Positions 4,856-56,616 of a stretch of 64,000 nucleotides of DNA are shown in pieces. A program made the position numbers and the translations under genes. The notes beneath the pieces are model-generated. The model was not told the origin of the DNA. It saw nothing but the letters and a program-made list of their open reading frames with translations, and searched no databases. The DNA is from Archangium violaceum (GTDB taxonomy: Bacteria; Myxococcota; Myxococcia; Myxococcales; Myxococcaceae). Within the stretch, counting starts at the first letter, position 1. Every line of letters begins with the position of its first letter. Location: positions 7,360,001 to 7,424,000 of the forward strand of contig NZ_CP069396.1 in NCBI RefSeq assembly GCF_016887565.1, in the 5' to 3' direction.

Positions 4856-4890
4856 CCCTCTCCCTCTGGGAGAGGGCGGGGGGTGAGGGT
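4856..4890 (-). repeat. REP-like palindrome copy 1
   Basis: Palindrome CCCTCTCCC-TCT-GGGAGAGGG (4856-4876) followed by the GGGTGAGGGT head. Minus orientation, facing copy 2 as an inverted pair 30 nt away. Both lie between the start of gdx and the end of the rluD-type gene. Confidence 0.9.
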
Positions 4891-4920
4891 CTTTCCACGG
4901 TGGGCAACCCGGGGGCGTAT

Positions 4921-4954
4921 ACCCTCACCCTGGCCCTCTCCCAGAGGGAGAGGG
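4921..4954 (+). repeat. REP-like palindrome copy 2, overlapping the 3' end of the rluD-type gene
   Basis: Head ACCCTCACCC (4921-4930), then CCCTCTCCC-AGA-GGGAGAGGG (4934-4954). Read on the minus strand it encodes PSPSGRGPG and the TGA stop of the pseudouridine synthase gene, so the repeat is part of that coding sequence. Confidence 0.92.
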
Positions 4955-33821: not shown

Positions 33822-33855
33822 ACCCTCACCCCAGCCCTCTCCCAGAGGGAGAGGG
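33822..33855 (+). repeat. REP-like palindrome copy 3
   Basis: Head ACCCTCACC then CCCTCTCCC-AGA-GGGAGAGGG (33835-33855). The palindrome ends 2 nt from the stop codon of cmk (minus strand). Confidence 0.92.
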
Positions 33856-37972: not shown

Positions 37973-38006
37973 ACCCTCACCCTGACCCTCTCCCAGAGGG
38001 AGAGGG
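37973..38006 (+). repeat. REP-like palindrome copy 4
   Basis: ACCCTCACCC head and CCCTCTCCC-AGA-GGGAGAGGG (37986-38006). Direct tandem with copy 5, 34 nt apart, in the gap between convergent genes. Confidence 0.92.
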
Positions 38007-38040
38007 GATTGACGCGGGGAGCAGCCTGGGATTCGAGAGA

Positions 38041-38073
38041 CCCTCACCCCGACCCTCTCCCGAAGGGAGAGGG
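38041..38073 (+). repeat. REP-like palindrome copy 5
   Basis: CCCTCACCCC head and CCCTCTCCC-GAA-GGGAGAGGG (38053-38073), the GAA-loop subtype. It ends 20 nt from the stop codon of the ArsA-like gene (minus). Confidence 0.92.
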
Positions 38074-49638: not shown

Positions 49639-51156
49639 ATGCACAAGGATCCCATCATCGGCATCGACCTCGGCACGACCAACTCGTGTGCCGCGATCGT
49701 CGAGGACGGTGGGAACGTGAAGCTCATCCCCTACAAGGGGGGCGAGTACACCATCCCCTCGATCTTCGCGATCGACGACAAGGGCAACGAGCTGATCGGC
49801 TACGAGGCCAAGCGCCAGTGGCAGCTCAATCCGAAGAACACCATCTACGGCTCCAAGCGGCTGGTCGGCCGGCCCTTCAAGAGCGACGTCGTCGAGGCGA
49901 TGAAGAAGGTCGTGGCGTACTCGGTACGCCCCGGCAAGAAGAGCGACGTCGTCCTGGACGTGGGCAAGAAGGAGTTCTCGCTCCAGGAGATCAGCGCCAA
50001 GATCCTCAACAAGATCCGCGACGTCGCCGCCAACCACCTGAAGACGCCCATCAAGCGCGCCGTGGTGACGGTGCCGGCCTACTTCAACGATCGGCAGCGC
50101 CAGACGGTGAAGGAGGCCGGCAAGCTCATCGACCTGGAAGTGGTGCGCATCATCAACGAGCCCACCGCGGCCTCGCTGGCCTATGGCGCTGGCAAGGGCA
50201 TCAACAAGAAGGTGCTCGTCTACGACCTGGGCGGCGGCACCTTCGACGTGTCCATCATCGCCATCCGCGACCGCGTCTTCGAGGTCAAGGCCACCGGCGG
50301 TGACATCTTCCTGGGCGGCATCGACTTCGACAACGCCATCATCCACCACGTCCTCAAGGACTTCGCCTCGAAGACGGGCATCGATCTGGCCACGGATCCC
50401 GTGGCCATGCAGCGCATCAAGGATCTCGCCGAGCGCACGAAGATCGATCTGTCGGCGCGCGATGACGTGCAGTTCAACATCCCCTTCATCACGATGACCT
50501 CGCAGGGCCAGCCCCTGAACATCGAGATGAAGTTCACGCGCAAGATGCTGGAGCAGCTGACGAACCACCTGGTGGATCGGACGCTGCAGATGGTGGCGCG
50601 CGTGCTGGTGGACTCGGGGCTGAGCACCAAGGACATCGACGAGGTGCTGCTGGTGGGCGGTCAGACGCGCATGCCCGTCGTGCAGGACCGGCTGACGAAG
50701 TTCTTCGGCAAGACGCCGAGCAAGGGCGTCCACCCGGACGAGGCGGTGGCCGTCGGCGCGGCGCTGTACGCGAAGTCGCTCGAGGACAACTCCAGCCTGC
50801 GGTTGCAGTTGCTAGACGTGATTCCGATGGCGATCGGCCTGGAGCGCGCGGGCGGTGGGTTCCACACGGTGTTCCCGCGCAACGCGCCGATCCCCAATGC
50901 CAAGCAGCTGGTGGCGACCACGAGCATCGACAACCAGACCGAGCTGGCCATGCGCATCTTCCAGGGCGACCACGAGCAGGTGGTGAAGAACGATCTGCTG
51001 GGCGAGTTCACGTTCTCGGGGATCCGCCCGGCCCGGGCAGGCACGGTGCAGGTGGAGATCACCTTCGACGTGAACGTGGAAGGCATCCTCACCATGCGCG
51101 CGAGAGATCCCGCCACCGGCCGCGAGATGAAGACCACGGTCCGCGTGTCGGGCTGA
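49639..51156 (+). CDS. DnaK/Hsp70-like chaperone lacking the C-terminal lid
   Basis: 505 residues. The nucleotide-binding domain is complete: GIDLGTTNSCAAI, VPAYFNDRQRQTV, RIINEPTAASLAYG, VYDLGGGTFDVSI and LVGGQTRMPVVQ. The inter-domain linker and substrate-binding beta-sandwich (LLDVIPMAIGLERAGGG ... FTFSGIRPARAGTVQVEITFDVN) are present. The protein stops at RVSG, where DnaK continues with about 110-130 residues of helical lid. There is no dnaJ or grpE nearby. Myxobacteria carry many DnaK paralogues, some with developmental or motility roles; this one is a lidless specialist. REP copy 6 begins 33 nt after its stop in the usual polarity. Confidence 0.9.
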   Translation: MHKDPIIGIDLGTTNSCAAIVEDGGNVKLIPYKGGEYTIPSIFAIDDKGNELIGYEAKRQWQLNPKNTIYGSKRLVGRPFKSDVVEAMKKVVAYSVRPGKKSDVVLDVGKKEFSLQEISAKILNKIRDVAANHLKTPIKRAVVTVPAYFNDRQRQTVKEAGKLIDLEVVRIINEPTAASLAYGAGKGINKKVLVYDLGGGTFDVSIIAIRDRVFEVKATGGDIFLGGIDFDNAIIHHVLKDFASKTGIDLATDPVAMQRIKDLAERTKIDLSARDDVQFNIPFITMTSQGQPLNIEMKFTRKMLEQLTNHLVDRTLQMVARVLVDSGLSTKDIDEVLLVGGQTRMPVVQDRLTKFFGKTPSKGVHPDEAVAVGAALYAKSLEDNSSLRLQLLDVIPMAIGLERAGGGFHTVFPRNAPIPNAKQLVATTSIDNQTELAMRIFQGDHEQVVKNDLLGEFTFSGIRPARAGTVQVEITFDVNVEGILTMRARDPATGREMKTTVRVSG

Positions 51157-51188
51157 GAGCGTCACAATGACCGCTGCCCGTGGATGTC

Positions 51189-51222
51189 CCCTCTCCCTCT
51201 GGGAGAGGGCTAGGGTGAGGGT
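51189..51222 (-). repeat. REP-like palindrome copy 6
   Basis: CCCTCTCCC-TCT-GGGAGAGGG (51189-51209) then TAGGGTGAGGGT. Inverted relative to copy 7; the two bracket the DUF559 gene. It provides the in-frame TAG (51210-51212) that would end that gene if the earlier stop were absent. Confidence 0.92.
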
Positions 51223-51275
51223 CTACCCTCCGCATCCATGAGCACCGTGTAGATGCGCACCAACACGGCCTCGGT

Positions 51276-51599
51276 CTAGAAGAGCAGGTCCCTGTTCCCG
51301 AAGCGCAGGACCCTCACGCCCTGCTCCGCGAGAAACCGCGAGCGCGCGGCATCGCGCGAGACGTTGGCGGGTAGCGCGTGCTGGTCACCATCGAGCTCGA
51401 TGGCCAGCGAGCGCTCCGCGCAGAAGAAATCGAGGATGTAGGGACCGAACTGATGCTGCCGCCGGAACTTGAATCCGGCCATCTGCCGGGCGCGCAGCAG
51501 CTTCCAGAGAATCGCCTCGGCATCCGTGGAGGAGCGGCGCAGATCACGGCATCGCTCCAACAGACCGACGATGATGGTGTTGCCTCGATAGTCGGGCAC
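51276..51599 (-). CDS. DUF559 (Vsr-like PD-(D/E)XK) endonuclease, truncated by an amber codon
   Basis: 107 residues, GTG start. It matches DUF559: [50 protein letters not shown] with the acidic active-site residues. The frame ends ...GNRDLLF at a TAG (51276-51278). Beyond it the same frame continues TEAVLVRIYTVL, exactly the normal DUF559 C-terminus, and then ends at a second TAG inside REP copy 6. The first stop is therefore probably a recent nonsense mutation. Two REP copies in inverted orientation bracket the gene. Role of the family unknown; nuclease activity is inferred from fold. Confidence 0.8.
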
Positions 51600-51646
51600 T
51601 GCCTTGTACCCCCCTCTCCTCGAAGGCCAGCGGCTCGGGACAGTAG

Positions 51647-51680
51647 ACCCTCACCCCAGCCCTCTCCCAGAGGGAGAGGG
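51647..51680 (+). repeat. REP-like palindrome copy 7
   Basis: ACCCTCACCCC head and CCCTCTCCC-AGA-GGGAGAGGG (51660-51680). It ends 11 nt from the clpX stop codon and 47 nt upstream of the DUF559 start codon. Confidence 0.92.
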
Positions 51681-51691
51681 GGCATACACGG

Positions 51692-52969
<1,278 letters not shown>

Positions 52970-53072
52970 TGCCGCCTCCAGGTTCACCGACCCCGGTTCC
53001 CCGGAGCCTACTAGCCGACACCACCACACCCAAGCCGTTTGGCTGCCCACGTCTCGAACAGCCGTCCGCCAA

Positions 53073-53101
53073 AATATAGGCTCCGGCTGCACGCGCAGGA
53101 A
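53073..53101 (-). promoter_or_regulatory. Candidate clpX promoter
   Basis: On the minus strand TTCCTG (53101-53096), 17-nt spacer, TATATT (53078-53073). The -10 is good, the -35 weak. It lies between the upstream hairpin and clpX. Confidence 0.4.
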
Positions 53102-53118
53102 GCCCATCTCGGATATGT

Positions 53119-56516: not shown

Positions 56517-56550
56517 ACCCTCACCCCAGCCCTCTCCCAGAGGGAGAGGG
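56517..56550 (+). repeat. REP-like palindrome copy 8
   Basis: ACCCTCACCCC head and CCCTCTCCC-AGA-GGGAGAGGG (56530-56550), upstream of the outer-membrane protein gene. Direct tandem with copy 9, 32 nt apart. Confidence 0.92.
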
Positions 56551-56582
56551 GGCTTACACAGGAGGAACCCGGGGGCCGAGAT

Positions 56583-56616
56583 ACCCTCACCCCGACCCTC
56601 TCCCGAAGGGAGAGGG
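56583..56616 (+). repeat. REP-like palindrome copy 9
   Basis: ACCCTCACCCC head and CCCTCTCCC-GAA-GGGAGAGGG (56596-56616), GAA-loop subtype like copy 5. It directly abuts iteron cluster B and lies about 40 nt after the larE stop. Confidence 0.92.

Follow-up and report, generated by a model that had tools for sequence, protein, structure and literature searches.

The window, the whole stretch of DNA analysed here, comprises 64,000 nt of Archangium violaceum (contig NZ_CP069396.1, positions 7,360,001 to 7,424,000), and in it a short gene for a DUF559 nuclease lies between two REP copies facing each other. The features of this locus are as follows.

51175..51231, plus strand: left inverted arm; its triplex-motif repeat has the hairpin at 51189-51209, the purine third strand at 51213-51221 and a tail toward the gene (from the repeat search and the core scan)
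51222..51275, minus strand: former C-terminal segment of the nuclease (TEAVLVRIYTVLMDAEGR...), in frame past the TAG and entering the left repeat; intact in the orthologue L013
51276..51599, minus strand: DUF559 (PF04480) nuclease gene of the Vsr/EDxHD fold, GTG start, 107 aa, cut short by the TAG at 51276-51278
51638..51694, minus strand: right inverted arm; its triplex-motif repeat has the hairpin at 51660-51680, the third strand at 51648-51656 and a tail toward the gene

The open reading frame at 51276-51599 matches PF04480 with 103.8 bits, the Pfam cut-off being 20.6. The 13.2-Mb genome holds two such matches, and with the second at 13.09 Mb, beyond the window, the gene is indeed the only DUF559 gene of the window, as an earlier note made from the sequence had it. 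The same note placed the gene between REP copies 6 and 7 in opposite orientation, which agrees with what was found: the two arms, 57 nt each, are inverted and 89% complementary (repeat search), and their cores, 51189-51209 and 51660-51680, are the sixth and the seventh of the nine in the window. As to the spacing, given there as 54 and 47 nt, the first value stands and the second has to be corrected, the gaps between repeat and gene measuring 54 and 48 nt with the purine tail counted as repeat. Judged by reading their translations, the neighbour on one side (49639-51156, plus strand) is Hsp70/DnaK-like and the neighbour on the other side (51692-53107, minus strand) is ClpX-like. The DUF559 frame contains one internal TAG, just ahead of the last helix, at a position where the orthologue from genome G045 (L013) has a glutamate codon; the copy in the window is therefore considered truncated and, with this nonsense mutation, may be losing its function while the repeats persist.

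In both arms the repeat is built as CCCTCTCCC, three nucleotides and GGGAGAGGG; after these comes GGGTGAGGG, directed toward the gene. The pyrimidine tract, the complementary purine tract and the third purine tract that define a triplex motif are all found on one strand, and a text search with the sequence returned the identical motif from PMC4666352, which identifies the repeat as the G/C-rich intrastrand triplex motif (TM, also TMECO; formerly BoxC or PIT) of Holder et al. 2015 (PMC4666352). According to the accessible text of that paper, TM is multicopy in more than 260 genomes, partly as inverted pairs, its loci are unstable, it stalls polymerase in vitro, and its surroundings in E. coli hold no remnants of transposases or integrases; the main text, as far as it is accessible, makes no mention of a nuclease, a DUF, ycjD or fabI. 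The genome studied here has 663 copies of the core (at most two mismatches; 1-2 for a reversed-pattern control) and 634 copies of the exact purine half with its tail (control 0), and the window has nine cores where shuffled sequences give an expectation of 0.17. A conserved GTAG (or CGTC) tag is lacking, as GTAG stands beside the tail in two of the nine window copies. These two are the bracketing repeats, whose tails are adjoined by GTAG at 51643-51646 and 51223-51226; it is seen at none of the other seven.

A structure model of the enzyme was made for the Archangium violaceum orthologue L051 from a 57-sequence alignment (pLDDT 86.9). In fold it matches, at Z 15.2, an endonuclease-like protein from Neisseria, 3hrl (profile 3.6e-35); further matches are the catalytic domain of I-Bth0305I (3r3p; Z 11.1, profile E 1e-4) and Vsr (1cw0 and 1vsr; Z 9.6 and 9.2), the one to TnsA being weak (Z 7.2). 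Four residues, E31, D60, H77 and D86, are invariant in the 57 sequences and presumably correspond to the motif from which EDxHD takes its name. The reading of the enzyme uses the leading fold and profile matches alone; profile matches to bacterial toxin B-subunit chains (E 0.29-0.75) were taken as chance. As stated in the accessible parts of the respective papers, YcjD has been linked to Vsr (PMC1189080), a DUF559 gene has been called EDxHD (PMC9403480), and Caulobacter VsrA contains a DUF559 domain, DUF559 proteins of this sort having been tied to repair (PMC12907096); the background of I-Bth0305I is covered by a review (PMC3943268). The genome contains no convincing RAYT: its five Y1_Tnp matches score 23.7-25.6 bits in frames of 313-419 aa, and none of the five frames is bracketed by the repeat core. 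Matches so weak and unbracketed lend no support to a RAYT moving the repeats of this genome.

The bracket is not peculiar to Archangium. To score it, the two 300-nt flanks of a gene were compared for their best inverted alignment, with a threshold of at least 14, in a phylum-wide set consisting of the best 80 of at least 588 DUF559 relatives in GTDB contigs from many phyla, four of which were dropped for short or masked flanks. Of these best 80 of at least 588, 62 of the 76 remaining loci reach the threshold, whereas on the same contigs random positions do so in 28 of 2,513 cases and ORFs in 8 of 555; at a score of at least 20, the numbers are 43 of 76, 5 of 2,513 and 4 of 555, respectively. 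Control genes that are isolated (at least 80 nt of intergenic sequence on both sides) are bracketed in 6 of 157 cases (Fisher 1.8e-35). A pattern search for TM on both sides of the gene succeeded for 39 of the 80 DUF559 genes (best 80 of at least 588) and for 2 of 588 ORFs. In the Xanthomonadaceae, 41 of 50 elements score at least 14 and 39 of 50 at least 20, random positions 11 of 355 and 0 of 355. Twenty extra DUF559 copies were drawn from multi-copy genomes by non-random choice. Inverted order prevails over direct order by 43 to 5 in the Xanthomonadaceae (p 1.4e-8) and by 52 to 24, with one tie, phylum-wide (best 80 of at least 588, three loci dropped, no mask filter; p 0.002); if only the nearest repeats are compared, 26 loci of that best 80 of at least 588 are inverted and 13 direct. 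Within the order, 18 more full-length DUF559 loci were examined, and in 14 of them an inverted repeat spanning the gene scores at least 27; L008 and L018 have none at that score, and in L004 (G048) and L005 (G046) the contig runs out right at the DUF559 gene. Since these draft contigs break at the gene, flanking repeats may hide DUF559 from many assemblies.

The bracket test failed for 14 of the 76 phylum-wide loci (best 80 of at least 588) and for 9 of the 50 from Xanthomonadaceae. Two further peculiarities were noted. Across the gene in L197 and L218 (Xanthomonadaceae) the direct-repeat score exceeds 100, as might be expected if the flank had recently been duplicated or rearranged. The third strand of the upstream repeat faces the gene in Archangium and the Xanthomonadaceae and faces away from it in many loci of the in-frame or Verrucomicrobia type (L062, L053, L056, L059, L061, L088, L091).

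Chance inverted repeats are ruled out by the random, ORF and isolated-gene controls. A build-up of REPs in wide intergenic gaps is likewise ruled out, by the isolated genes (6 of 157) and by the 28 of 80 units (best 80 of at least 588) that lie wholly within coding frames. The expectation of the earlier note, that DUF559 genes of relatives would be flanked by REPs more often than random genes, is thus supported (62 of 76 from the best 80 of at least 588, and 41 of 50, versus 8 of 555 and 6 of 157); the two outcomes named there as speaking against it, relatives without flanking REPs and arbitrary genes bracketed equally often, did not arise.

The abundance of the repeat follows the gene in the order. 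Full-length DUF559, taken as a match of at least 95 bits, is present in 19 of 145 genomes, and ten or more TM copies are found in 15 of these 19 versus 3 of the 126 others (Fisher 3e-14, from counts that ignore shared ancestry); this threshold was chosen after viewing the table, and at 50 or more copies the numbers are 13 of 19 and 2 of 126. In G037, G137, G139 and G142 DUF559 is present and the repeats around the gene are others than TM. Conversely, G042 (157 TMs) and G121 (248 TMs) have no DUF559 match, which may reflect loss of the gene, a gap in the assembly or another enzyme at work, and G084 (32 TMs) has a weak match only. The genus g31 has the full-length gene in G015 only, which has 79 TM copies, the other eight genomes having 0-1; in the genus g3, G053 is devoid of gene and repeats, its assembly being 79% complete.

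Nuclease and repeat also vary together. The similarity of the proteins correlates with that of their bracketing repeats among 40 elements from Xanthomonadaceae (Mantel r 0.587; reached in 0 of 10,000 permutations, maximum 0.194) and among 48 phylum-wide loci from the best 80 of at least 588 relatives (r 0.486; 0 of 5,000 permutations), 10 of the 50 and 32 of the 80 having been left out for a score below 18 or a short flank. Repeats of elements from the same genome are not more alike (0.333, 17 pairs) than those from different genomes (0.375); for instance, G194 (Xanthomonadaceae) has several DUF559 elements, and the bracket repeats of three differ from one another. Seven repeat types were distinguished, and for each type the nucleases are more alike within than outside it. 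Dispersed copies are type-specific as well: of 51 genomes, exactly the four that hold a type-5 DUF559 have more than one type-5 repeat, namely 19, 25, 20 and 2 copies, while the remaining 47 have 0-1 (Fisher 4e-6). Two or more type-3 repeats occur in all six type-3 genomes and in G425, G418, G557 and G492, at most one in the other 41. G418, G557 and G492 carry DUF559 elements of other types, part of the copies having been typed; in G425, two inverted type-3 repeats lie 428 nt apart, from which a previously unseen DUF559 gene was predicted between them and then found (E 1e-37). Descent of gene and repeats as one block, without any recognition, could also give the co-variation.

Regarding movement, gene and repeats behave differently: members of this genus differ in where repeats are inserted, and the gene is fixed. 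All six genomes of the genus have the DUF559 gene at the same site with the same neighbours, and gene movement, looked for in these six, was not found. The polymorphism was seen by comparing 72-120 kb from five genomes (G000, G045, G043, G044 and G047), with the following repeats in the window.

4856..4954, no strand assigned: dispersed inverted doublet, REPIN-like, tails inward; in G000 and G045, the same site empty in G043, G044 and G047
33835..33855, minus strand: dispersed single repeat; in G000, G045, G044 and G043, the same site empty in G047
37986..38073, minus strand: two repeats in direct order; one in G045
56530..56616, minus strand: two repeats in direct order; one in G045

Further, one repeat of G044 is absent from the other four genomes. 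No clean target-site duplication was found at the polymorphic sites, the flanks of which are too diverged. Of the dispersed type-5 copies, 19 were read; their ends are the same, and several are followed by a second inverted arm, which makes them REPIN-like. Near-identical recent copies of the DUF559 gene were not demonstrated. In G072 and G104 the neighbours of the locus are 4-14 kb apart, and these genomes therefore offer no clean empty site. The search for empty sites in close relatives, proposed in the earlier note, was accordingly fruitful for the repeats, which are polymorphic, and yielded none for the gene, DUF559 being carried by six of six genomes.

A substantial part of the units resides inside other genes. 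DUF559 lies in a stop-free frame of 250 aa or more in 33 of the 80 phylum-wide loci, and both arms lie within the larger frame in 28 of the 80 (in either case the best 80 of at least 588). Pfam searches with 17 of the 33 frames identified hosts that include HsdR, HsdM, MmeI, an N6/N4 DNA methyltransferase, methionyl-tRNA synthetase (MetRS), a Mur ligase and a Pyr_redox_2 protein, other host frames being named by reading; none of the Pfam matches of these 17 is a splicing domain. In 36 of 48 bracketed loci (phylum-wide, best 80 of at least 588), the nuclease frame continues into the repeat that lies downstream. The linker of MetRS ahead of the C-terminal tRNA-binding domain presents an allelic series (30 of 196 loci read): L050 (= L150) has repeat-DUF559-repeat, for which L046 is a second case, L154 has two repeats in inverted order a short distance apart, and L166, L174 and L177 have one or two single repeats; in the other loci among those 30, some viewed in part, no repeat was seen. 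HsdR frames (L056, L075, L088 and others) contain in-frame repeats without DUF559 at loops that elsewhere hold repeat-DUF559-repeat. That REPs occur inside ORFs was already known (PMC3733652, accessible text).

E. coli K-12 has a DUF559 gene as well, ycjD (b1289; L037 4408-4761), the C-terminus and downstream region of which enter TM repeats; the repeats lie on one side only, so that a bracket is absent. The fabI-ycjD-sapF stretch is present to at least 80% in 3,362 of 5,426 genomes. In strain SMS-3-5, which does not have the ycjD stretch, efflux and regulator genes are at that site, and in phylogroups without ycjD an efflux operon separates fabI from sapF (PMC12817139, accessible text). Because other genes are there in SMS-3-5, the ycjD site cannot be used as a clean empty site.

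The inverted bracket and its specificity, the co-variation, the type-specific dispersed copies and the insertion polymorphism of the repeats are observations; they are probably explained by a single co-evolving element, repeat-DUF559-repeat with the repeats inverted, in which a nuclease of the Vsr/EDxHD fold drives the copying of its cognate triplex-motif repeats. Recognition, cleavage and copying of the repeats by the nuclease are inferred by analogy with RAYT/REPIN systems (PMC3116915, accessible text). The nuclease would recognise the repeat in folded form, as a hairpin or a triplex that replication probably exposes in single-stranded DNA, and would nick it, leading to copies of the repeat at new sites, mostly as inverted doublets, some of which would decay to single repeats. 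The gene itself would mostly be inherited vertically and in single copy, like RAYTs, and be copied occasionally; a unit landing in an open frame would survive if its length preserves the frame, giving a host protein with an inserted nuclease domain. By such a process gene and repeats would maintain each other's specificity.

Foremost among the alternatives is homing, where the nuclease would cut repeats that are already present and made by something else, and the gene would be copied in by recombination between repeats. It accords with the nearest characterised relative being a homing endonuclease, I-Bth0305I (E 1e-4, Z 11.1), with the HsdR and MetRS sites that hold the repeat alone or repeat-DUF559-repeat in different organisms, and with the TM-rich genomes without DUF559 (G042, G121). 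However, the gene is static in the genus despite several hundred target repeats, whereas the repeats move, and type-specific dispersed repeats hardly occur outside genomes that have the nuclease of their type, for which there is no need if the target pre-exists; homing is thus considered unlikely, if deserving attention. Less likely still is that the gene is a passenger in a block copied by another recombinase such as a RAYT, DUF559 having an unrelated role, for example in repair or defence. RAYT-driven REP systems are known, and DUF559 proteins such as Caulobacter VsrA have been tied to repair (PMC12907096, accessible text), but the genome has no convincing RAYT and its Y1_Tnp frames are not bracketed by the repeat core, GTAG accompanies the tail in just two of nine window copies, and the association extends across many phyla with the cognate pairing retained.

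DUF559 might also cut triplexes or hairpins at the replication fork and so let genomes tolerate repeats that spread by slippage or template switching. The Vsr and Hjc-like folds would suit such a function, as would the stalling of polymerase by TM in vitro and the instability of TM loci (PMC4666352, accessible text), but alone it leaves the bracket and the lineage-specific repeats unexplained, and it is regarded as the most remote of these explanations.

The DUF559 nuclease is the best candidate yet for the spreader of these repeats. On balance, with slightly less assurance than is given to the co-evolving element as such, DUF559 is likely to be the long-missing spreader of TM/PIT/BoxC and to found a second, RAYT-independent class of REP on a nuclease of the Vsr/EDxHD fold, units of which also sit in frame in restriction enzymes and methionyl-tRNA synthetase. 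The system is regarded as a new class because the enzyme that defines RAYT systems is absent while the working logic resembles that of REPINs; no description of a pairing between DUF559 and triplex or REP repeats was found in the literature searched, which covered few subscription papers. TM repeats are widespread and destabilising, with no mobility gene near them according to the accessible text of PMC4666352, and the link to DUF559 makes their origin directly testable. It also provides a candidate role for DUF559, a Pfam family labelled as being of unknown function. If true, unrelated nucleases have become partners of REP-type repeats on more than one occasion. Units inserted in frame would represent a selfish unit persisting within host proteins, which bears on the annotation of restriction systems and tRNA synthetases.

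Compared with known systems (the cited papers being represented by their accessible text), the DUF559 unit has inverted ends; of the target-site duplication that would go with them in a classical insertion sequence, no clean case was seen at the polymorphic repeat sites, the flanks there being diverged. With Vsr mismatch endonuclease it shares the fold (Z 9.6 and 9.2), the Pfam family, DUF559, being different. It has a catalytic domain homologous by profile and fold to that of the EDxHD homing endonuclease I-Bth0305I (3r3p) and follows a similar selfish-gene logic, but DUF559 proteins are short, without an extended DNA-binding region, and have inverted repeats at both ends and hundreds of dispersed copies without the gene. 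The TM described previously (PMC4666352) is the same hairpin CCCTCTCCC/GGGAGAGGG with the third strand GGGTGAGGG, likewise with inverted pairs and unstable loci; there, no mobility gene was near, whereas here a nuclease family is tied to it. Rickettsia palindromic elements and REPs in ORFs are also short palindromic in-frame inserts, including some in tRNA synthetases (PMC3733652), but are inserts of 20-82 aa for which no nuclease is reported, while here a nuclease domain lies between two repeats. The closest likeness is to RAYT/REPIN systems (PMC3116915), and the parallel with RAYT genes drawn in the earlier note holds well: both have a single distinct gene per lineage between inverted REPs, dispersed inverted doublets and singlets, and cognate, co-evolving pairs of gene and repeat type that are inherited vertically among close relatives. 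In contrast to RAYTs, which are HUH Y1 (IS200-like) transposases, DUF559 is a PD-(D/E)XK nuclease of the Vsr/EDxHD fold (Pfam and fold), its repeat is a triplex motif without a conserved GTAG, and the whole gene-bearing unit is also found in frame inside host proteins.
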